A DNA stretch of 62,995 bases, from the NCBI GenBank assembly GCA_947630795.1, contig CANRJC010000012.1, positions 1-62,995 on the forward strand, read 5' to 3'. How positions within the stretch are numbered: position 1 is the first letter of the stretch; each line of letters opens with the position of its first letter. Positions 7,956 to 18,333 of the stretch are shown here, in pieces. The notes under the pieces are model-generated. The model worked only from the letters and a program-made list of their open reading frames with translations. It was not told the origin of the DNA and did no database searches. Position numbers and translations under genes: made by a program. The DNA is from an uncultured Phascolarctobacterium sp. (lineage in GTDB: Bacteria > Bacillota > Negativicutes > Acidaminococcales > Acidaminococcaceae).

Positions 7956-9482
7956 TTATTCCAAGCCTTCCATGCTGCCGGTCTTTTCCAGCTGCTCATA
8001 GCACTTGAAAGCCTCGGAGAGGATATGCGGAGTCTGGCTATTGCCGCAGGCTTCGCAGGCTCTCTTGAAGTAGTTCTTCAACCAAGGCTGATATTTGGGG
8101 TTGGCGATCTGGTCGATGATGATAGGAGCTTTTTCCTTCGGGGACAGGCCACGCAGGTCGGCTACGCCGCGTTCGGAAACGATAACATCAACGTCCAAAG
8201 TGGCATGATCGATATGGCTGCAGAACGGAACTACAGAGGAAATCTTGCCGCCCTTAGCCAAAGAGTTGGTGAAGAATACTGTCAAGTAGCCGTTACGGGC
8301 AAAGTCGCCGGAGCCGCCTACACCGTTCATCAACTTAGTGCCTACTACATGAGTGGAATTAACGTTGCCATAGATATCCACTTCGATAGCAGTGTTCATA
8401 GCGATAACGCCGATACGACGAGCAACCTCGGGGCTGTTGGAGATTTCCTGCGGACGGAGCAGCAGATAGGGTTTGTACTTCTCTACATTCGCATAGAATT
8501 TCTTCTGGCACTCGGGGGACGGGGTCAATGCAGTGCCGGAGGCAACACGCAACTTGCCGGCGTCGATGAGGTCGAACATACCGTCTTGGATAACTTCGGT
8601 GTAAACGGTGAGGTCGGTGAAGTCGGAATTAACCAAGCCGTTGATAACTGCATTGGCCACGGAGCCTACGCCGCTCTGCAGAGGCAACAAGTTCTTCGGC
8701 AGACGGCCTTCTTTTACTTCGTTCTTCAGGAAGGCCACCAAGTTGGCGCCCATGTGCTTAGCATCCTCGTCGATCTCGCCCAAAGGACGAACTTTATCGG
8801 TGATGTCGCAGGGAACTACAGCTACTACCTTGCTCAGTTCGCAGGGGATGTAGGTGGTGCCGATGCGGTCTTCGGGTTTCTCAACGGGAATGGGCTTCCG
8901 GTTGGGAGGATCCAGAGGAACATAAGAGTCATGCATGCCTTCCAATTCTACAGGTTGGGTAACATTGACTTCGATGATGACCTTCTTGGCACCCTGTACA
9001 TAAGAGGAACTGTTGCCCATAGATGTCGTGGGGATGATACCGATCTGGCCGTTGCCCAGATCGATGATCTTGCAGGCCTCAACAATAGCAACATCTACGC
9101 CTCTGCGGTTGGCCATAAAGCCGTACCGAACCATCTGAGCCATATGGGACAGATGGATGTCGGCGTATTTAACTTTGCCGGCGTTGATGGCTTTACGCAT
9201 AGTGCCGTTGGTCTGATAGGGCAGACGGCGGTCGATGACACCGGCCTGCACCATTGCGTCGTCGATCTCGGGACCAACGGAAGCGCCGGTCCAAATGTTA
9301 ACCTTGAAAGGAGTCTTCTTGCCTTTTTCTGCCAAAGCCAGAGGCACTGCCTTGGGGTAACCGGACGGAGTAAAACCGGAAACACCGACATTATCGCCGT
9401 CTTTGACAAATTCCGCAGCGGCTTCGGCGGTGGTGACCAGACCGGCTACTGCATCGCAAATGCGATCTTTGATGTCAATCAT
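7956..9482 (-). CDS. scpC: Propionyl-CoA:succinate CoA-transferase (acetyl-CoA hydrolase/transferase family)
   Basis: It moves CoA from propionyl-CoA to succinate, releasing propionate and regenerating succinyl-CoA, so no ATP is spent on activation. The 508-aa protein has the two-domain class I CoA-transferase layout. The predicted catalytic glutamate is E296 in YTEVIQDG, GVGSVANAV is at about 271-279, and a GGSGDFARNG loop is near 392-401. Start ATG after AAGGAGGAAGG. Acetate or 4-hydroxybutyrate CoA-transferase are family alternatives; the adjoining mutase and decarboxylase genes make succinate/propionate the likely pair. Confidence 0.88.
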   Translation of the reverse strand: MIDIKDRICDAVAGLVTTAEAAAEFVKDGDNVGVSGFTPSGYPKAVPLALAEKGKKTPFKVNIWTGASVGPEIDDAMVQAGVIDRRLPYQTNGTMRKAINAGKVKYADIHLSHMAQMVRYGFMANRRGVDVAIVEACKIIDLGNGQIGIIPTTSMGNSSSYVQGAKKVIIEVNVTQPVELEGMHDSYVPLDPPNRKPIPVEKPEDRIGTTYIPCELSKVVAVVPCDITDKVRPLGEIDEDAKHMGANLVAFLKNEVKEGRLPKNLLPLQSGVGSVANAVINGLVNSDFTDLTVYTEVIQDGMFDLIDAGKLRVASGTALTPSPECQKKFYANVEKYKPYLLLRPQEISNSPEVARRIGVIAMNTAIEVDIYGNVNSTHVVGTKLMNGVGGSGDFARNGYLTVFFTNSLAKGGKISSVVPFCSHIDHATLDVDVIVSERGVADLRGLSPKEKAPIIIDQIANPKYQPWLKNYFKRACEACGNSQTPHILSEAFKCYEQLEKTGSMEGLE

Positions 9483-9787
9483 GTTAACCTTCCTCCTTAA
9501 AAATAGGTATTGTAATGATATGGGATACTGGACATAAAACTCATCGCCGACTCACAGGAGAGCCGAAGAAGAGATTTTATCTGCGCGCGGGCCCCGCACT
9601 TTTACACGGAGCAAGACCGTGATCGGCCTCGGTACATTTCATTCTACGCGACCTCTTTTAAGTCCTGCCGCAAACTCGACAGTTGCGCACTCATACCCAG
9701 GTCACACTCCATCGCCCTCATTATACCACAAACCGTAAAATATTTCACACACTTTTCAGAAATTTTTTATTTTCGGCACCGAGCTTT
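9483..9787 (-). promoter_or_regulatory. Promoter and about 230-nt leader of the CoA-transferase/mutase cluster
   Basis: On the minus strand an extended -10 (TGG TATAAT, TATAAT at 9725-9720) lacks a good -35. Transcription from it would leave an untranslated leader of roughly 230 bases before the ATG at 9482. I see no gene in the gap and no recognised riboswitch; in particular no B12 box. There is also no clear terminator after the hydrogenase gene that ends at 9788, so some read-through is possible. Confidence 0.5.
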
Positions 9788-11512
9788 TTAACGACGTTGC
9801 GCCTGATAAGTGGTGTGGAGCAAATGGTGAGCTTTTTCTCCGAGAGGTTCGCCCAAAAATTCTTTGTAAAGAGCGATGATATCCGGGTTCTCGTGGCTCT
9901 TGCGAATGATGCTGGCCTCATCGCAACCGAAGAGAGCTTCACGCCGCAGCCTGCGCACGGAAGCATCTACCGGTACCGGCTGGCCGCCCCCGCCGATACA
10001 ACCGCCGGGGCAAGCCATCACTTCGATGAAATGGTAGTCTGCCTCTCCCGCTTTTATCCTCTCCAACATTTTTTTCGCCGCCGCCAAGGTGTGGACTACG
10101 GCGATCTTCACTTCCGTGCCGACTATATTCAGCGTTGCTTCGCGAGTTTCTTCCATGCCCCGCACTTCGTGATATTCTACTTTTGGCAGGCTCTGCCCGG
10201 CTACTACATCGGCCACGGTGCGCAGCGCTGCTTCCATAACGCCGCCGGTAGTTCCGAAGATGACTCCGGCGCCGGTGCCGTAGCCTAAAGGACTGTCGAA
10301 GTCTGCCTCAGCCAAAGCAGCAAAATCGATACCTGCGGAGCGTATCATCCTACCCAGTTCCCTGGTAGTAATGACGATATCCACGTCTCTATAGCCGCTG
10401 TCGCACAATTGCGGCCGAGCTGCCTCGGCCTTCTTGGCGGTGCAGGGCATCACGGATACGGAGACTATCTTGGCGGGATCGATCCCCGCTTTTTGGGCAA
10501 AATAAGTTTTGGCGATGGCACCGAACATGCCCTGAGGAGATTTGGCGGTGGAAAGATGAGGCAAGAGCTCAGGATATTTCAACTCGATCATGTTCACCCA
10601 GCCGGGACTGCAACTGGTGATCATGGGCAACACGCCGCCGTTTTGCAGACGGTGCAGGAATTCGTGGCCTTCCTCCATGATGGTGAGGTCTGCGGAAAAA
10701 TCGGTGTCGAAAACTTTATCGAAACCTAACTGCTTCAAAGCTGCCACCATCTTGCCGGTAACTACACTGCCGCTGGGAAGAGCCAATTCTTCGCCTAAAG
10801 CCACCCGCACTGAAGGCGCGGTCTGGACGATAACGAATTTATCGGGATCTGATAGAGCGTCCCACACTTTATCGGTGTCGTCTTTTTCCACGATGGCAGC
10901 GGTAGGGCACACGGTAGAGCACTGACCGCACAATGAGCAGGCAGCCTGCCCCAAGCCCAAGCCGAAAGCAGGAGTTACTATAGTGTTAAAGCCACGACGA
11001 GCGAAACTGTAGACATCCATGCCTTGCACGTCACGGCACATGCGGATGCAACGGCCGCAGAGGACGCACTTTTCCTGATCCCTCACCAAAGACGGATTGC
11101 TGTCGTCTATGGCGTGAGATTTTTTCTCGCCGCCTTCAAAACGCAACTTCCGCACGCCCAGGTCGGCAGCGATCTTCTGCAACTCGCAGTCGCCGCTCTT
11201 TTGGCAGCAGAGACAATCTTTGGGATGATTGGTCAAAAGCAGTTCCACCACCGTGCGGCGGGCTTCCCGTACTTTGGCGGTGTTGGTCTTCACCACCATG
11301 CCCTCGGCTACGGGATACACGCAGGCCGCAGCCAAGCCCCTGCTGCCGCTGGCCTCCACCATGCAGAGACGACAGGCACCTTCGGGGCGAAGCTCCGGAT
11401 GATAGCATAAAGTGGGGATGTAGATGCCGGCCTGACGGGCCGCTTCCAATATACTGGTTCCGGCCGGAGCCTGCACAGGTTGGCCGTTGATCGTCAAATT
11501 TATCGTGGTCAT
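9788..11512 (-). CDS. hndD: [FeFe] hydrogenase catalytic subunit, HndD/HydA type
   Basis: A 574-aa cytoplasmic hydrogenase of the NAD-linked multimeric type. N-terminal [2Fe-2S] ferredoxin domain (Cys 36, 47, 50, 64), His-Cys3 [4Fe-4S] segment at 96-109, and two [4Fe-4S] motifs at 149-159 and 192-202. The H-cluster domain has TSCSPGW (299-305), MPCTAKK (355-361) and EVMACPGGCIGGGG (497-510), followed by the small C-terminal domain. The first motif has Ser where many enzymes have a second Cys. ATG after GGAGG. It is last in an hndA-B-C-D-like order, implying a complex that exchanges electrons between H2, NAD(H) and probably ferredoxin; bifurcation is inferred. The maturases HydE, HydF and HydG are not in the window. 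Confidence 0.95.
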   Translation of the reverse strand: MTTINLTINGQPVQAPAGTSILEAARQAGIYIPTLCYHPELRPEGACRLCMVEASGSRGLAAACVYPVAEGMVVKTNTAKVREARRTVVELLLTNHPKDCLCCQKSGDCELQKIAADLGVRKLRFEGGEKKSHAIDDSNPSLVRDQEKCVLCGRCIRMCRDVQGMDVYSFARRGFNTIVTPAFGLGLGQAACSLCGQCSTVCPTAAIVEKDDTDKVWDALSDPDKFVIVQTAPSVRVALGEELALPSGSVVTGKMVAALKQLGFDKVFDTDFSADLTIMEEGHEFLHRLQNGGVLPMITSCSPGWVNMIELKYPELLPHLSTAKSPQGMFGAIAKTYFAQKAGIDPAKIVSVSVMPCTAKKAEAARPQLCDSGYRDVDIVITTRELGRMIRSAGIDFAALAEADFDSPLGYGTGAGVIFGTTGGVMEAALRTVADVVAGQSLPKVEYHEVRGMEETREATLNIVGTEVKIAVVHTLAAAKKMLERIKAGEADYHFIEVMACPGGCIGGGGQPVPVDASVRRLRREALFGCDEASIIRKSHENPDIIALYKEFLGEPLGEKAHHLLHTTYQAQRR

Positions 11513-11527: not shown

Positions 11528-13318
11528 TTAACCTTTGGTGATAGCCTTGAACGGACAGCCGGCCATGCAGGCTCCGCACTTGATGCACTTAGACTGGTCT
11601 ATGACATGCTTTTGCTTCACCGCGCCGCTGATGGCCTGCACCGGACAATTGCGAGCGCACTTGGTGCAGCCTTTGCAATCGTCGCCGATGATGTAGCTGA
11701 GCATCTTCTCACAGGCACCGGCAGGACAGCGTTTATTTTTGATGTGTTCTTCGTATTCGTGGCGGAAGTAGCGCAGAGTGCTGAGCACCGGGTTGGGTGC
11801 GCTCTGGCCCAGACCGCAGAGAGCTGTGGCCTTGATATTTTCCGCCAGAGACTCCAACAATTCTATGTCTCCTTCTCTGCCCTCTCCTTCGGTGATGCGG
11901 GTGAGTATCTCCAACATCCGCTTGGTGCCCTCCCGGCAAGGAGTGCATTTGCCGCAGGATTCGCTTTGAGTGAAGGTGAGGAAGAACTTGGCCACGTCCA
12001 CCATGCAGGTGTCTTCATCCATCACCACCAAGCCGCCGCTGCCCATCATGGCGCCGGCGGCGATGAGAGAATCGTAGTCCACCGGCAGATCCAGCATACT
12101 CTCCGGCAAACAGCCGCCGGAAGGACCGCCGATCTGCACGGCTTTGAATTTTTTTCCGTTGGTGATGCCGCCGCCGATATCGTAAATGATCTCCCTCATG
12201 GTGATGCCCATAGGCACTTCCGCCAGGCCGGTGTTGTTGATCTTGCCGGTAAGGGCGAACACCTTCGTCCCTTTGGATTTTTCCGTCCCGAATCGACTGT
12301 ACCATTCGGCGCCGTTGTTGATGATCTGGGCCACATTGGCGAAAGTTTCTACATTATTTATATTGGTAGGCTTGCCCCACAGGCCCGATACCGCCGGGAA
12401 GGGAGGCCGAGGCCGAGGCATGCCCCGCTTGCCCTCGATGGAGGCCATAAGAGCTGTCTCTTCGCCGCACACGAAAGCGCCGGCTCCCTCTTTGATATGG
12501 ATAGTGAAATCGAAACCGCTGCCGAAAATGTTCCTACCCAAAAGCCCGGCCTCTTCCGCTTGAGCTATGGCTACCCGCAGCCGTTTGATGGCCAGAGGAT
12601 ATTCAGCCCGCACATAGATGTAGCCTTCGTCGGCACCGATGGCGTAGCCGCAGATAGCCATGCCTTCCAACACCCGATGAGGATCGCCCTCCAGCACGCT
12701 GCGATCCATAAAAGCGCCGGGGTCGCCTTCATCGGCGTTGCAGATAACGTATTTTTTATCGCTGACGGACGCTTTGGCAAACTGCCACTTCAAGCCCGTA
12801 GGGAAGCCGCCACCGCCCCGGCCCCGCAGCCCAGACTTTTTTACTTCTTCCACTACCTGCTCGGGGCTCATTTGGGTGAGGGCCTTGCCCAAAGCTTCGT
12901 AACCGCCCACGGCGATGTACTCTCCTACGTTTTCCGGGTCGATCTCGCCGCAGTTGGCCAGCACGATGCGGTGCTGCTTTTTGTAGAAACCGATCTCATC
13001 GTAATTGGGCACCTGTTCCTGAGTAAGAGGCTCTCGGTAGAGCAGGCGCTCCACGATGCGTCCCTTATACAGATGCTGTTCTACTATCTCCTTCACATCG
13101 TCGGCCGTTACCCGGCAGTAAAAAGTGCCCTCGGGATAGACGATGACCAGAGGCCCGTGCTCGCAGAAGCCGTGACAGCCGGTCTCCACCAGCATCACTT
13201 CGTCCTGCAGTTTATATTCTTCCAGATAGCGAGCGAAAGCGTCCCGCACTTTTTGCGAGCCGCTGGATTTGCATGCTGTGCCGCCGCAGACTAAAACGTG
13301 GGCTCTGATATGCTGCAT
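11528..13318 (-). CDS. hndC: NuoF-like NAD(H)-binding hydrogenase subunit, HndC/HydB type
   Basis: A 596-aa flavoprotein subunit. The N-terminal thioredoxin-like [2Fe-2S] domain (Cys in GGTACKSS and TGCHGFC) is followed by a NuoF core: GRGGGGFPTGLKW and CNADEGDPGAFMDR (FMN/NAD site), and ESCGKCTPCREG for the N3-type [4Fe-4S] cluster. The C terminus adds two ferredoxin [4Fe-4S] motifs (CKGCTKCARNCP and CIKCGACMAGCP). This extended form is typical of HndC/HydB of bifurcating hydrogenases rather than of complex I. ATG follows GGAGGAAGATC. It lies 15 bases upstream of the catalytic subunit gene. Confidence 0.95.
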   Translation of the reverse strand: MQHIRAHVLVCGGTACKSSGSQKVRDAFARYLEEYKLQDEVMLVETGCHGFCEHGPLVIVYPEGTFYCRVTADDVKEIVEQHLYKGRIVERLLYREPLTQEQVPNYDEIGFYKKQHRIVLANCGEIDPENVGEYIAVGGYEALGKALTQMSPEQVVEEVKKSGLRGRGGGGFPTGLKWQFAKASVSDKKYVICNADEGDPGAFMDRSVLEGDPHRVLEGMAICGYAIGADEGYIYVRAEYPLAIKRLRVAIAQAEEAGLLGRNIFGSGFDFTIHIKEGAGAFVCGEETALMASIEGKRGMPRPRPPFPAVSGLWGKPTNINNVETFANVAQIINNGAEWYSRFGTEKSKGTKVFALTGKINNTGLAEVPMGITMREIIYDIGGGITNGKKFKAVQIGGPSGGCLPESMLDLPVDYDSLIAAGAMMGSGGLVVMDEDTCMVDVAKFFLTFTQSESCGKCTPCREGTKRMLEILTRITEGEGREGDIELLESLAENIKATALCGLGQSAPNPVLSTLRYFRHEYEEHIKNKRCPAGACEKMLSYIIGDDCKGCTKCARNCPVQAISGAVKQKHVIDQSKCIKCGACMAGCPFKAITKG

Positions 13319-13353: not shown

Positions 13354-13722
13354 TTATTTGTTTTCTATTTTCCCTACCACCATTTCTTCCACGATGTTAC
13401 CGTTGACCACGTGGTTGGCGATGATCTTGCTCACGTCTTCGGGCTTCACATTGCCGTAAGTGATGCGGGCCTCTCCAGGCCGCAGCACATCCAAAAGCAC
13501 TTCTTTATCGCACATGCCGATGCAACCGGTCTGCTGCACCTGTACATCGGTGAGGTGACGTCGGGCCAGTTCGTCCAGCACCGCGGCCATCACTTCTCTG
13601 GCCCCGGCGGCGATGCCGCAAGTGCCCATGCCGATGATGATCTTGGTGCCGCTCTCCTTCCTCAATTTCAGATCGCTCTTCAATTTATCCCTCAATGCGT
13701 GAAGATCGGCCAAACTTTTCAT
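13354..13722 (-). CDS. hndB: Thioredoxin-like [2Fe-2S] subunit, HndB type
   Basis: A 122-aa ferredoxin-like protein with GTCGIAAGA near residue 32 and TGCIGMCDKE near 66, the cysteine pattern of the small thioredoxin-fold [2Fe-2S] subunit of NADP/NAD-reducing hydrogenases. I take ATG 13722 as the start: it overlaps the stop of the upstream ATPase gene by four bases (ATGA), and an upstream in-frame start would add 20 residues read inside that gene. Likely role: electron relay next to HndC. Confidence 0.87.
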   Translation of the reverse strand: MKSLADLHALRDKLKSDLKLRKESGTKIIIGMGTCGIAAGAREVMAAVLDELARRHLTDVQVQQTGCIGMCDKEVLLDVLRPGEARITYGNVKPEDVSKIIANHVVNGNIVEEMVVGKIENK

Positions 13723-14276
13723 ATTGCTCTCCCTTCCTCTTTTACTCGTTCTATTTCCTGTTGTAAGTAGGTCCTTACCCAAGCAGCCAACTCAGGATGG
13801 GAAAAGTCGCAGGCTTCTCCCAATTCTTCCCGAATGCTGCGGCTGTCGAAAACGAAGTCGCCCCGGCTCCCTTTATAGCTGAAAAGCACATCCGTCGCAG
13901 GGGCCCCGGCCAAAAGAACGGCGATACTGCCGGCCACATCACCTAAGGGCGGGCAGTCGATGTTGTCTCGACGAAAGGAAGCCGTCACTTCCGTTCCCTT
14001 GCCCGGCCGGGAAGTGATGTCCAAGCGGCCGCCGCACTGTTGAGCCGCCATATCCACGAGGGGTATGCCCATGCCCACTTTACGGGTGGTGCGGGTGGTG
14101 ACGAATGGGTCCCGCACTTTTTCCAAAAAGCTCTGCTCCATGCCCCTGCCGTTGTCGGCGATGCGAAAGACCAAAAAGCCCTCTTCGTTTTCCGCCACTT
14201 CGATACGGATCAGCGTAGCCTGAGCGGCCACGGCATTTTGCGCCAGATCCAGAATGTTCAGCGCCAACTCGCCCAT
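13719..14276 (-). CDS. GHKL-type ATP-binding protein embedded in the hydrogenase operon
   Basis: A 185-aa protein with the histidine-kinase-like ATPase fold: N-box with Asn14 in DLAQNAVAAQ, G1 box DNGRGM (41-46) and G2 box VGMGIPLVDMAAQ (67-79). There is no dimerisation/phospho-acceptor His domain and no sensor domain; a C-terminal tail of about 65 residues is of unknown function. It starts one base after the hndA-like stop codon and overlaps hndB by four bases, so it is translationally coupled to the hydrogenase subunits. It could be a protein kinase or anti-sigma-type switch, or an accessory factor; the partner is unknown. Confidence 0.85.
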   Translation of the reverse strand: MGELALNILDLAQNAVAAQATLIRIEVAENEEGFLVFRIADNGRGMEQSFLEKVRDPFVTTRTTRKVGMGIPLVDMAAQQCGGRLDITSRPGKGTEVTASFRRDNIDCPPLGDVAGSIAVLLAGAPATDVLFSYKGSRGDFVFDSRSIREELGEACDFSHPELAAWVRTYLQQEIERVKEEGRAI

Positions 14277-14762
14277 TTAACGGTAACCGGCCAAAATGGT
14301 CTTGATCTTTTCCGGCGTCAGACGGCCGTGAGTGTCCTGATTGATCTGCATCACCGGGGCCAAACCGCAGGCACCGATACAAGCCACCGTTTCCAAAGTG
14401 AAGCGCAGGTCTTTAGTAGTCTGCCCCGCTTTTATCCCCAGTTCTTTTTCCAACGCCTGCAAGACGCTCTTGCCTCCCCGCACGTGACAGGCAGTGCCCT
14501 GACAGGCTCTGATGATGTTGCGCCCCCGAGGATCCAGATGGAAGAGGGAGTAGAAGGTGACCACACCGTAGATCTCGGCGATGGGCACTCCGGTCCTCTC
14601 CGCCACATATTCCAGGGCTTCCCGGGGCAAATAATTGTAGAGGTTCTGCACCTCTTGCAAAATAGGGATCAAGGTGCCCTTCTTGCCTTCATATTCGGCT
14701 AGGATGGCATCCACCTGTTCCCGTTTCTCGAAGCAAACTCCTTCCGTTTCTTTCCGGCTCAT
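14277..14762 (-). CDS. hndA: NuoE-like [2Fe-2S] subunit, HndA/HydC type
   Basis: A 161-aa thioredoxin-fold ferredoxin equivalent to the 24-kDa subunit of complex I and to HydC. The four cluster cysteines are in CQGTACHV and in VACIGACGLAPVMQIN. The preceding YNYLPREALEYVAERTGVP helix region is conserved. I chose ATG 14762, preceded by GAGGAGG; an upstream ATG at 14810 would add 16 residues without support. It is the first structural gene of the hydrogenase set, 121 bases after the PHP gene. Confidence 0.93.
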   Translation of the reverse strand: MSRKETEGVCFEKREQVDAILAEYEGKKGTLIPILQEVQNLYNYLPREALEYVAERTGVPIAEIYGVVTFYSLFHLDPRGRNIIRACQGTACHVRGGKSVLQALEKELGIKAGQTTKDLRFTLETVACIGACGLAPVMQINQDTHGRLTPEKIKTILAGYR

Positions 14763-14883
14763 ACTTCCTCCTCGGCTCAACGGCTGCAAATGCAGCCTGA
14801 TCATAGTCATGCGGATATTATTGTCCTGTAACGATGAACTTCTTCCGTGTGTCGAGCTGACATTCGCTTTTCATAGAAGACAA

Positions 14884-15654
14884 TCACAGCGGCACCGCAA
14901 AGTGCCCGGGCCGGCAACTGCGGCCATCTTCTCCCGCCAAAGCCTTGCGCAGTTCTGTAACGGTCAGTTCTTCTACCGTCAAAAGATTTTTCGGTCCTTC
15001 CACGAAGTCGTAGATATTGTGGGCGTCGCTGTCGCTGATGTAGGGCAGGCCACCGGCCAAACGACGCAAGAGAGCATCATCCTGCTTTTTTTGCCGCCAC
15101 CCCGCCGCCGACAATTCTGCCGCCGCCAGCCCCATAGCGGGGTCGATGAAGCCCAACTGACCTACCAAACTATAGCTGGGCCGATCGATATGGGCAGCCA
15201 AAGCCAGCCCGCCCAATTCATTCGCTTTGGCCACGATGGCCTCGGCACCGAGATCCAAAGGAGCATGGAGCAAACGCTCTTCTTCATAAAGAAATTCGTC
15301 TTCTTCATCCACCGCATATTGAGGGCCGAATACTTCCGGTCTATTCTTCAGGCCGCTCATGTGACCGTCTACGAAACTCTGCCACCTGCGCAACTGTTTC
15401 AAAGTGTCGAAGAGGACAACGATGTGGGCTTCTTCCGCCGACTCCGCTTCCATCCCCGGGAAGACATGCACGTCATAACGTTCCGCCGCCCGCAGGGCTG
15501 CCAGCACGTTGCCGCCGGCGTTGTGGTCGGTGATGGCTACGGCTCCGATACCGTATTCCGCCGCCCGCAACACGATGTGATGAGGAGTCATCTCCACCTC
15601 AGCACAGGGCGACAACAATGTATGAACGTGAAAGTCGGCCAAGACCGTCTTCAT
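14884..15654 (-). CDS. PHP-domain phosphoesterase
   Basis: A 256-aa PHP-family protein. Metal-ligand motifs are at the N terminus (DFHVHTLLSP, about 7-16), ITDHNAGGN near 41, ALAAHIDRPSY near 150, and SDSDAH near 215. PHP proteins hydrolyse phosphate esters (TrpH/YciV, histidinol phosphatase, polymerase-associated domains). Located directly after a DRTGG gene (three bases apart) and before the NuoE-like gene. In this context it is a candidate phosphatase of a regulatory circuit, but that is inference; the substrate is not deducible. Confidence 0.85.
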   Translation of the reverse strand: MKTVLADFHVHTLLSPCAEVEMTPHHIVLRAAEYGIGAVAITDHNAGGNVLAALRAAERYDVHVFPGMEAESAEEAHIVVLFDTLKQLRRWQSFVDGHMSGLKNRPEVFGPQYAVDEEDEFLYEEERLLHAPLDLGAEAIVAKANELGGLALAAHIDRPSYSLVGQLGFIDPAMGLAAAELSAAGWRQKKQDDALLRRLAGGLPYISDSDAHNIYDFVEGPKNLLTVEELTVTELRKALAGEDGRSCRPGHFAVPL

Positions 15655-15657
15655 ACC

Positions 15658-16005
15658 TCAGTCCCTCAGGCCCAGTGCGTACAGCTTCCCTGCCGCCGCA
15701 AAAGCACTGAGAGGCGTGGTGAAGACTGCCACGTCATTGGCTGCAGCCCGCTCCAAAGTGTCGGGAGCGGGCTTGGCCCCTCCCGCTACGATAACGGCGG
15801 CCAACCCGATAAGAGCAGCCACCGCCGCCACGTTCTGATGGCCCTGCATAGTGACCCACACTTGCCCCGGCCGAGCCTGCCCCATCACATTGCTGAGCAG
15901 ATCGGAGACATAGCCCCCCGCGACCTCTGCGGTGAGCTCCTCGGCCTTAAGGCCGGGGGTGACCAAAGTCAGCTCCAATTTTTTCGTAAGTTCTTTGACT
16001 TGCAT
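15658..16005 (-). CDS. DRTGG-domain protein 1
   Basis: A 115-aa protein that looks like a single DRTGG domain, the ligand-binding fold also found in the N-terminal half of HPr kinase-like and phosphotransacetylase-associated proteins. Visible features: a conserved LSNVMG segment near 37-42 preceded by GGYVSDL, a TMQGHQNVAAVA stretch and a C-terminal VFTTPLSAF. It is paired with a second DRTGG protein at 17971-18333. No catalytic residues are evident; a sensory or adaptor role in the hydrogenase locus is inferred. Confidence 0.75.
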   Translation of the reverse strand: MQVKELTKKLELTLVTPGLKAEELTAEVAGGYVSDLLSNVMGQARPGQVWVTMQGHQNVAAVAALIGLAAVIVAGGAKPAPDTLERAAANDVAVFTTPLSAFAAAGKLYALGLRD

Positions 16006-16135: not shown

Positions 16136-17488
16136 CTACCTCTCCTCTTTCGGTTTTTCCGGCTCATGCGAGATCGGTATCTGCCTGGCCAGCTCCAGCA
16201 TCCCCTGAGCCAGCCTGTGCACCGAAGAGCGCAATTTGAAGATGCAGTCGATCTCGTGGGCTTTGCCCTGCACGATGTCCTCCGCCAAACCCTGACAGCT
16301 GGGAGCGCCGCAGGCGCCGCAGTCCAGCCCCGGCAGAGAAGAGAGCACCTCTTCCATCCGCTCGAATTTTTTCATGGCGGTGACGATGTCGTCGTCCAAC
16401 TGCATCATGGGCCGAGGCACCAAAGGCTTCACATGATCTTTAGAAGAAGGAAAATCTTTCAGAGTCATGCTGCGAGCCATGGCCTTTTCTCGATCTGCAG
16501 GTTCTTTTTGCCGCAAAAGGCGAATACGACCTCTTAAATTGCTTTCGGCCACGAATTTATTTTGAGCAGCCAAGATACCGCCGATGCAGCCGCCCTGACA
16601 GGCACTGCATTCCACGTAATCCAATTGCGGCACTTTATTCATGGAGATCTGCTCCAACATATCATATACGTCGTCGATACCGTGGACCGCCAGACCGTGG
16701 CTGATGCCTGCGCTCAAGAGCTCGCCGCCGTAGGCTCCCCAGGCCAGACCGTAGGAAGAACCGGTGCTCACCTTGATCTCTTCGTCTTCGCCCAAATGTT
16801 TCAACAAAAGGCCGTAGATCTCCGAAAGGCTGAAGGACCCGGTGAGCTGCGTGTCTCGCACATCCACCGATTGATGGATGTTGGTGTTTTTGGAAGGGCA
16901 GGGAGAAATGGCCCAAACGCCAATCTTTTCCGGCGCCAGTCTTAAACGCTGGGCTGCTTCTTTTTTCACATAGATGGCCGCCGCTTCCGTGGGAGCCAAA
17001 ATGGGCACCACTTGCTTGATCAGTTCGGGGAATTTCACCTGAATGAGCCGCAACACAGCCGGGCAGGTGTTGGAGATGAGGGGCTTGCGTCCGCCCCGAT
17101 AATTTTTTACGTAGTCTTCGATCTCCAAAGCGATATATTCCGAAGCCAAAGACACGTCGAAGATCTCGTCGAAGCCCAAATAGCGCAATCCCTGCCAGAT
17201 GGTGGGACGGGCCACCTTCTCCGGAAATTGAGCATAAAGAGAAGGAGCGGGCAAAACGATGTTATATTCATGATCTTGCAGACGGTCCAAACTTTCCGTG
17301 ACGACGCTATAAGCATGATAGGGACAGCGAGCCGCACAGGCCCCGCAATCCACACAGCGGTCGCCGATGATCTCGGCCTTACCGTTGCGCACCCGAATGG
17401 CCTCCGTGGGGCACACCTTCACGCAGGCCACGCAGCCCTGGCACTTTTCCCTTTGTAAAGTTACCGAATGAAAAAATTCCACGGCCAC
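16136..17488 (-). CDS. Divergent [FeFe]-hydrogenase-like Fe-S protein, putative sensor (HsfB-like)
   Basis: 450 aa from a GTG start (17488) that lies nine bases after AGAGGAGA. Two N-terminal [4Fe-4S] motifs (CQGCVACVKVCP, 16-27; CVDCGACAARCP, 45-56) precede a hydrogenase H-domain. Its first H-cluster motif is NTCPAV (140-145) instead of TSCCPxW, the second is SPCPSKN (195-201) instead of MPCxxKK with Glu missing, and the third keeps ECSACQGGCIGG (293-304). A C-terminal DCGACGAPSCQGLAEDIV (389-406) adds another [4Fe-4S] site. Cluster-binding cysteines are largely kept but proton-relay positions are altered, as in sensory hydrogenases. No PAS or kinase domain is fused, but a GHKL protein is encoded just upstream. 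Confidence 0.85.
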   Translation of the reverse strand: MAVEFFHSVTLQREKCQGCVACVKVCPTEAIRVRNGKAEIIGDRCVDCGACAARCPYHAYSVVTESLDRLQDHEYNIVLPAPSLYAQFPEKVARPTIWQGLRYLGFDEIFDVSLASEYIALEIEDYVKNYRGGRKPLISNTCPAVLRLIQVKFPELIKQVVPILAPTEAAAIYVKKEAAQRLRLAPEKIGVWAISPCPSKNTNIHQSVDVRDTQLTGSFSLSEIYGLLLKHLGEDEEIKVSTGSSYGLAWGAYGGELLSAGISHGLAVHGIDDVYDMLEQISMNKVPQLDYVECSACQGGCIGGILAAQNKFVAESNLRGRIRLLRQKEPADREKAMARSMTLKDFPSSKDHVKPLVPRPMMQLDDDIVTAMKKFERMEEVLSSLPGLDCGACGAPSCQGLAEDIVQGKAHEIDCIFKLRSSVHRLAQGMLELARQIPISHEPEKPKEER

Positions 17489-17536
17489 GGTCGCAAGTCT
17501 CCTCTGCCTAGGGCCCAAGTGAGGGACCGAAGGTAT

Positions 17537-17974
17537 TTACAGATCTTCGCTGCGGTGGCAGAAGCGCATGGTGATCACCGTGCCCTTCCCCACTGTCGAT
17601 TCGATGTTGAATTCATCGGAACATTTCATCATGTTGGGCAGCCCCATGCCGGCGCCGAAGCCCATCTGTCTGGCGTATTCGGGAGCGGTGGAGAAACCTT
17701 CCTGCAGAGCCGCTTGGATATCGGGAATGCCCTTGCCTTCGTCGCTGACGGTGATGAGGGTGGACTCGCCGGAGACCTCTGCCGTCACCGTTCCTCCTCC
17801 CGCGTGGATGATCACGTTCAATTCCGCTTCGTAGGTGCCTATAGCCACCCGCCGCACTACATCGGGAGGCACCCCCAAACGCTGCAGGGCCTTTTTTACT
17901 TTTGCGGACGCTTCTCCAGCTCTGTCGAAATCGTCTCCGGGACAATAATAGCTGAGCTTAAGAGTATCGGTCAT
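17537..17974 (-). CDS. RsbW-like GHKL ATP-binding protein
   Basis: A 145-aa protein resembling anti-sigma-factor serine kinases (RsbW/SpoIIAB). N-box with Glu50 and Asn53 in YEAELNVIIHAG, G1 box DEGKGI (78-83), G2 box GFGAGMGLPNM (105-115). It overlaps the DRTGG gene upstream by four bases (ATGA) and precedes the hydrogenase-like sensor gene, so the three are a co-translated unit. A kinase or switch role controlled by the sensor is inferred; no sigma factor or STAS antagonist is encoded nearby. Confidence 0.85.
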   Translation of the reverse strand: MTDTLKLSYYCPGDDFDRAGEASAKVKKALQRLGVPPDVVRRVAIGTYEAELNVIIHAGGGTVTAEVSGESTLITVSDEGKGIPDIQAALQEGFSTAPEYARQMGFGAGMGLPNMMKCSDEFNIESTVGKGTVITMRFCHRSEDL

Positions 17975-18333
17975 GGTGCCCTACCTTTATCGCAACTGGG
18001 GAGCCCCGCTTCGTCAAGCAAACGGCAGACATCTTCCAAAGGCAAAGGCGTGGCCAAAAGAGGCAGGCCCCAAGACTCTGCTTCTTCGGTGACGGAAGCC
18101 TTGGGCAATTTGTCTTCCACAAAAACTACGGCGCATAACTCAGTCATGTTGGCGGTGCGTATCACCTGCACGTTGGTGAGACCGGTGCAGAGGATGGTCT
18201 GGCGTTTGCCCCGAGCCAAGACCTTGCTCATCATATTGCTGCCGAAGCAGGTGGCTACCTCCTTCGTATCCAACCAGCGCTCGCCGCACAGCACTCTGGC
18301 GCCGAGCAGCTGCTGCACCTGTCGCAACTTCAT
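17971..18333 (-). CDS. DRTGG-domain protein 2
   Basis: A 120-aa protein, probably one DRTGG domain, with the conserved FGSNMMSKVLA segment (about 30-40), then TILCTGLTN and AVVFVEDKLP. It is the promoter-proximal gene of the hydrogenase locus. The ATG is preceded by GGAAGGAGACGGCC. The domain often sits beside CBS or kinase domains, where it is thought to bind nucleotides; that is family knowledge and is not shown here. Confidence 0.75.
   Translation of the reverse strand: MKLRQVQQLLGARVLCGERWLDTKEVATCFGSNMMSKVLARGKRQTILCTGLTNVQVIRTANMTELCAVVFVEDKLPKASVTEEAESWGLPLLATPLPLEDVCRLLDEAGLPSCDKGRAP

Follow-up and report, generated by a model that had tools for sequence, protein, structure and literature searches.

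The gene at 16136–17488 on the minus strand of the window (the whole 62,995-nucleotide stretch of uncultured Phascolarctobacterium DNA that was analyzed) encodes a hydrogenase-like protein, HydS, with altered H-cluster motifs, and the locus raises the question of whether this protein is a decayed hydrogenase, a metabolic enzyme, or a sensor, and with which proteins it acts. The open reading frame has a GTG start at 17488, with TTG at 17518 as an alternative, and specifies 450 residues. Its motifs, SNTCPAV / SPCPSKN / ECSACQGGCIGG, agree with those given in the preliminary description (NTCPAV, SPCPSKN, and ECSACQGGCIGG). The Pfam domains comprise two Fer4 domains, with two N-terminal [4Fe-4S] motifs, the Fe_hyd_lg_C domain (PF02906, 95 bits), and a C-terminal FeS domain (PF04060, 46.5 bits), which is the cluster domain previously described as retained and has exactly the spacing Cx2Cx4Cx16C (C390, C393, C398, and C415). 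The AF2 model has a pLDDT of 91, and its best matches in the PDB are without exception [FeFe] hydrogenases.

The cluster-ligand cysteines had been said largely to survive; they do survive, but the qualifier understates the result, as every one is kept. These are the H-cluster ligands C142, C197, C297, and C301, all eight of the N-terminal Fe-S cysteines, and the four of the C-terminal domain. The full set of 16 is intact in HydS and invariant across 91 homologues, and therefore the altered motifs do not reflect chance or decay; a decayed hydrogenase was rejected on this ground. The deviations are confined to second-sphere residues. In an alignment with group A enzymes, including the HydA of the same operon, T141 occupies the site of the proton-relay Cys299 of CpI, which is not a cluster ligand, and M353, M497, and E361 are replaced by S195, S295, and N203, whereas K358 is kept as K200. 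The earlier assignments of Thr for one of the paired cysteines, Ser for Met, and Asn for Glu are thus borne out at T141, S195, and N203. The M353 site is Ser or Thr in 86 of the 91 homologues and none has Cys at the C299 site, where Thr is found in six, all from the family to which the window belongs or from Phascolarctobacterium (Acidaminococcaceae), and Ala mostly elsewhere. Thr at the Cys299 site is the sole altered trait of HydS that is particular to its family.

HydS is a group D (M2e) [FeFe] hydrogenase, a group whose type enzyme is TamHydS and whose members have since 2020 been described as putative H2 sensors. In a maximum-likelihood tree of 69 sequences and 349 columns (IQ-TREE PMSF), built without TamHydS and TmHydS themselves and with group labels set by NCBIfam curated models, PAS content, and published residues, the group D clade of 24 rows that includes HydS has support of 100/100 and is separate from groups A and B. 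Groups C and D are joined with 99/98 support, so that the phylogenetic check named in the preliminary description puts HydS beside the putative-sensory group C and not among the catalytic A and B enzymes. The curated models for groups A and B are failed by wide margins (TIGR02512, 105 bits versus a cut-off of 406; TIGR04105, 122 versus 450), and with the tree these scores rule out a catalytic enzyme of either group. The PAS-bearing group C (M2f) was also rejected, as HydS lies outside that clade and a Pfam search gave no match to a PAS domain. The absence of PAS had been pointed out before as a departure from classical HydS. Loss of the proton-relay Cys, replacement of Met by Ser, and lack of PAS are, however, published traits of group D (PMC8163306), and the altered motifs and missing PAS of HydS are therefore the norm for its group and no anomaly.

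TamHydS, from Thermoanaerobacter mathranii (PMC8163306, PMC10407848, PMC13104023), has the same domain order and 16 cluster cysteines, the same replacement of M353 by Ser, loss of Cys299, and lack of PAS. It catalyzes H2 evolution and oxidation (PMC8163306), although its published activity is very low, and its slow H2 turnover uses an alternative proton path through E252 and E289 (PMC10407848). Both glutamates are kept in HydS, as E256 and E293, and equivalents of D378/D403, R30/R32, and E392/D393 are likewise all present. The differences are at Ala137 (Thr141 in HydS), at the proposed outer proton-path sites S249 and D265 (Tyr253 and His269), which vary in other group D members too, and at the M497 site, which is Ser in HydS versus Leu. 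In this comparison, TamHydS was represented by a Thermoanaerobacterium homologue with about 44% identity to HydS, in which 17 of 20 published TamHydS positions match, allowing single-residue shifts and with selected anchor positions. The group C enzyme of Thermotoga maritima, TmHydS, shares the two Fer4 domains, the H-domain, and the C-terminal [4Fe-4S] cluster; group C proteins, however, have a PAS domain and differ in their pocket residues, and HydS has neither feature.

The source genome encodes HydE, HydF, and HydG above cut-off (516, 556, and 926 bits), and therefore an H-cluster can be made in it. It also has a group B hydrogenase on another contig. A second HydA-like protein, on contig C2 (L194:6486–8144, minus strand), forms a long branch beside group A and has a truncated and altered third motif (VMNCPALCQSAPQS); its gene adjoins an open reading frame for a glutamate-synthase-small-subunit-like oxidoreductase (7973–9823), and a protein of this kind is also present in a genome of the same genus, G001.

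In the window, hydS is the third of ten genes on the same strand that extend from 18333 to 9788 with spacings of −4 to 130 bp, as follows.

17971–18333, minus strand: DRTGG1, DRTGG-domain protein, 120 residues (Pfam DRTGG, 24.4 bits, just below the cut-off of 25.2)
17537–17974, minus strand: HATPa, SpoIIAB/RsbW-like GHKL ATPase, 145 residues (Pfam HATPase_c/HATPase_c_2)
16136–17488, minus strand: HydS, group D (M2e) [FeFe] hydrogenase, putative H2 sensor, 450 residues (PF02906, 95 bits; Fer4 x2; FeS)
15658–16005, minus strand: DRTGG2, second DRTGG-domain protein, 115 residues (Pfam DRTGG, 27.5 bits; conserved downstream of HydS)
14884–15654, minus strand: PHP-domain phosphoesterase, 256 residues (Pfam PHP, 34 bits)
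14277–14810, minus strand: HydC/NuoE-like [2Fe-2S] subunit of bifurcating hydrogenase (PF01257, 191 bits)
13719–14276, minus strand: HATPb, second HATPase-only protein, 185 residues (PF02518, 60 bits; no HisKA)
13354–13719, minus strand: [2Fe-2S] thioredoxin-like ferredoxin (fdxn_Clost, 45.7 bits, below cut-off; conserved in the operon)
11528–13318, minus strand: HydB/NuoF-like FMN subunit (Complex1_51K, 169 bits)
9788–11512, minus strand: HydA, catalytic group A6 NADH-dependent [FeFe] hydrogenase (NF040763, 898 bits versus a cut-off of 765)

HydA has the canonical motifs TSCSPGW / MPCTAKK / MACPGGCIGGGG. The AF2 model of DRTGG1 (pLDDT 94) matches the DRTGG structure 2ioj in Foldseek (E 1e-6), and also the CBS-DRTGG region of a regulated pyrophosphatase and HPr kinase/phosphatase. 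Its gene overlaps that of HATPa by 4 bp. The best solved relative of HATPa is SpoIIAB (1til, profile match, E 8e-12), followed by RsbW, although its score against the SpoIIAB model is 56 bits with a cut-off of 135. It shares with these proteins the GHKL fold, the kinase boxes with the N-box Glu/Asn and catalytic Glu, and the G boxes, and its ATP boxes (E49, N53, D78-x-G-x-G, and GFGAGMGLPN) are conserved at 97–100%; it differs from them in the GFGAGMGLPN box, in the linkage to a hydrogenase, and in that no STAS antagonist or sigma factor is encoded among the module proteins. In the PHP protein, which is closest among solved structures to EndoQ and PHP phosphoesterases, the metal-site residues D7, H9, H11, D43, H44, E69, and H77 are conserved at 100% and H155, D210, and H212 at 96–98%.

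TamHydS is likewise encoded upstream of HydABC and beside a histidine kinase-like ATPase. An "AraC" gene beside it was considered as a transcription factor and set aside, as the Thermoanaerobacterium counterpart is DRTGG2 with a weak PucR-like match; the gene may have been misannotated as AraC.

The arrangement in the window is one instance of a near-invariant block, DRTGG1-HATPase-HydS-DRTGG2-PHP, that usually lies beside HydABC and is reported here as a new pattern. The loci surveyed were from named genomes (Bacillota, Thermodesulfobacteriota, and one Armatimonadota metagenome-assembled genome) and their relatives. Of 84 loci with enough flanking sequence, 83 have HATPa upstream of HydS and 80 have DRTGG1 there, two of the four exceptions (L043 and L053) having DRTGG1 fused to HATPa; DRTGG2 and PHP are downstream in 67 of 74. 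Among 199 Bacillota genomes, 68 encode a group D HydS, with a score of 250 bits or more, and 73 the HATPa family, which is present in 67 of the genomes with HydS versus 6 of the 131 without it (Fisher p ~1e-44, the genomes not being fully independent). In this sample, 66 HydS-HATPa pairs are 17–147 bp apart. The four neighbors are kept so consistently with HydS that they are very likely its signaling machinery, with HATPa the likely direct partner. Rex, a repressor considered as part of the module, was dropped because its gene is near only 13 of 91 HydS loci.

Several loci depart from the common plan. Group D hydS is split into two open reading frames in an otherwise intact module in L175, L176, and L188 (genomes G149, G061, and G399), possibly through pseudogene formation or frameshifts. 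Four group D copies, L162–L165 (genomes G078, G249, and G224), have no adjoining HATPa, and three of them (L162, L163, and L165) are beside a second, divergent HydABC set in which HydB scores ~770 versus ~1080 bits. Genome G047 encodes two hydrogenase-like fusions that group with each other beside group C, on a long branch: a 797-residue protein with an H-cluster domain, FeS, GGDEF, and EAL domains (L152:2428–4818), which keeps all four H-cluster cysteines (ITQPCP / LSPCIGK / LNCRRGC) and is a candidate H2-sensing cyclic-di-GMP enzyme, and a 637-residue protein fused to a methyl-accepting chemotaxis domain (L153:1019–2929).

DRTGG1 and HATPa form a single open reading frame in L168, L169, L171, L172, L179, L188–L191, L043, and L053, and the occurrence of such fusions in several lineages suggests that the two proteins act together. 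In a second group of loci, HydS is missing and HATPa carries an N-terminal CBS pair (L157–L160, L181, L183, L186, and L187; Pfam ~99–110 bits, that of L187 being identified by a purpose-built CBS profile). One of these (L157) otherwise has the same operon, with full HydABC down to HydA, and genomes G445 and G362 each have both kinds of locus, one with HydS and one with CBS. CBS and HydS occur together in L173, L177, L178, and L185. HATPa is fused to CBS in 8 of 11 HydS-less loci versus 4 of 113 HydS-linked loci, some loci having been chosen by the length of the reading frame; the 199-genome sample alone gives 4 of 7 versus 1 of 66, the latter figure resting on reading-frame length and examination of the long frames. 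Independence of the fusions was judged by family labels alone (f62, f88, f105, f137, f145, and f159). The other three HydS-less loci (L155, L156, and L161) have no CBS; these and L157 have a gene for a Rex-type repressor, a redox sensor, nearby. The CBS-DRTGG region of the Clostridium perfringens pyrophosphatase (3l2b and 3l31), which the DRTGG1 model matches, brings together domains that in the loci described here are separate or differently fused, with CBS joining the module when HydS is absent and no pyrophosphatase in the operon. The module is before or beside an RnfC-like gene in L158, L173, L185, and L187 (Pfam-confirmed in L158 only). Given this swap of CBS for HydS on the same ATPase, HydS acts as though it were an interchangeable input device of a regulatory ATPase.

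A regulatory role for HydS is thus supported by gene context and by sensor swapping, and HydS is probably an H2 sensor. We consider it reasonably probable that it reads H2 and signals through HATPa, DRTGG1, DRTGG2, and PHP onto HydABC. Most likely, HydS would bind and slowly process H2 at its complete H-cluster, and the resulting change of state would be passed to the adjacent HATPa, working with DRTGG1; HATPa, through or with DRTGG2 and PHP, would then change how active the downstream-encoded HydABC is or how strongly it is expressed. Where a CBS pair is fused to this ATPase, as in some other bacteria, that pair would replace or join HydS as the input, and the output would fall on HydABC or Rnf. 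Linkage and fusions report functional association and not chemistry, and it is from the combined evidence of family membership, intact ligands, maturation genes, near-universal linkage, fusions, and CBS substitution, all of which were observed directly, that we infer H2 as the signal, contact between HydS and HATPa, and the direction of regulation. H2 induces a change in secondary structure in TamHydS but does not reduce the C-terminal cluster of that enzyme (PMC13104023). The latter and the real, if slow, catalysis by TamHydS count against the sensing model, as do the HydS paralogues without HATPa, the absence of STAS and sigma genes from the module, and the lack of any HydS-HATPa fusion among the loci examined. 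In the earlier phrase "a sensor or electron relay rather than a turnover enzyme," the sensor fits the gene context and swapping, the electron relay has no specific support, and the contrast with turnover does not hold, as group D enzymes do turn over H2, if slowly.

Two other roles for HydS, with neighbors that serve something else, are unlikely: slow metabolic or scavenging H2 turnover, and electron transfer as an auxiliary subunit of HydABC. HydS does share an operon with HydABC in the window, has a full cluster set, and resembles an enzyme that catalyzes H2 evolution and oxidation (PMC8163306), but the published activity of that enzyme is very low (PMC10407848), some loci with the block have no HydABC in the 10 kb downstream (L048, L059, L064, and L065) or have HydABC divergent from it (L062, L076, L100, L101, and L107), and CBS on the HATPase makes no sense as a replacement for an electron-transfer subunit. 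The conserved linkage could also reflect complex assembly and not signaling. In such an assembly or repair system for the HydABC and Rnf flavo-Fe-S complexes, the HATPase and DRTGG proteins would be ATP-dependent chaperones, and HydS would report on or supply low-potential electrons; proximity of the module to HydABC or Rnf and HATPase-only proteins without a phosphoacceptor are in keeping with this. Modules away from both complexes (L159, L160, and L048), and the regulatory nature of CBS and DRTGG domains, with the likeness of the DRTGG1 model to the CBS-DRTGG region of a regulated pyrophosphatase, make it quite improbable.

Classical two-component sensing, from HydS to a histidine kinase to a response regulator, has a basis in earlier accounts of a neighboring histidine/serine kinase (PMC3561251) or histidine kinase-like ATPase (PMC8163306). 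The preliminary description, too, held that the kinase is a separate gene; ATPase genes are indeed separate, but their products are HATPase-only and have no histidine phosphoacceptor domain, and the one encoded next to HydS is nearest to SpoIIAB/RsbW. No HisKA/DHp domain, which both HATPases lack, and no response-regulator receiver was matched in any of the ten operon proteins, and this mechanism is highly improbable.

A 2012 remark put a kinase between sensory hydrogenases and the bifurcating ones downstream of them, and the upstream position and neighboring kinase-like ATPase have been noted before (PMC8163306, PMC3561251). Clostridium thermocellum, a laboratory clostridium, also has a group D HydS, Cthe_0335 (PMC3561251). 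According to the newest paper found (PMC13104023, April 2026), the partners of TamHydS are still to be identified. A pattern of DRTGG, PHP, or CBS with HydS was not found in the freely readable literature searched, and a prior description is possible; DRTGG together with hydrogenase returned one unrelated paper, and under the terms searched, Morra 2022 gave no mention of M2e, group D, or gene clusters.

The conserved block names partners for HydS, namely HATPa, DRTGG1, DRTGG2, and PHP, the fusions indicate which proteins of the module probably act together, and the CBS swap indicates where the sensor plugs in. More tentatively, and with slightly more doubt than belief, we suggest that HydS and a nucleotide-reading CBS pair may be two interchangeable inputs of a widespread, previously undescribed DRTGG-HATPase-DRTGG-PHP module that tunes HydABC and Rnf in anaerobes through Ser/Thr kinase or ATP-switch chemistry in place of two-component signaling. 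With partners named, H2 sensing by group D HydS can be tested directly in fermenting anaerobes, those of gut and rumen among them, in which control of H2 shapes fermentation.
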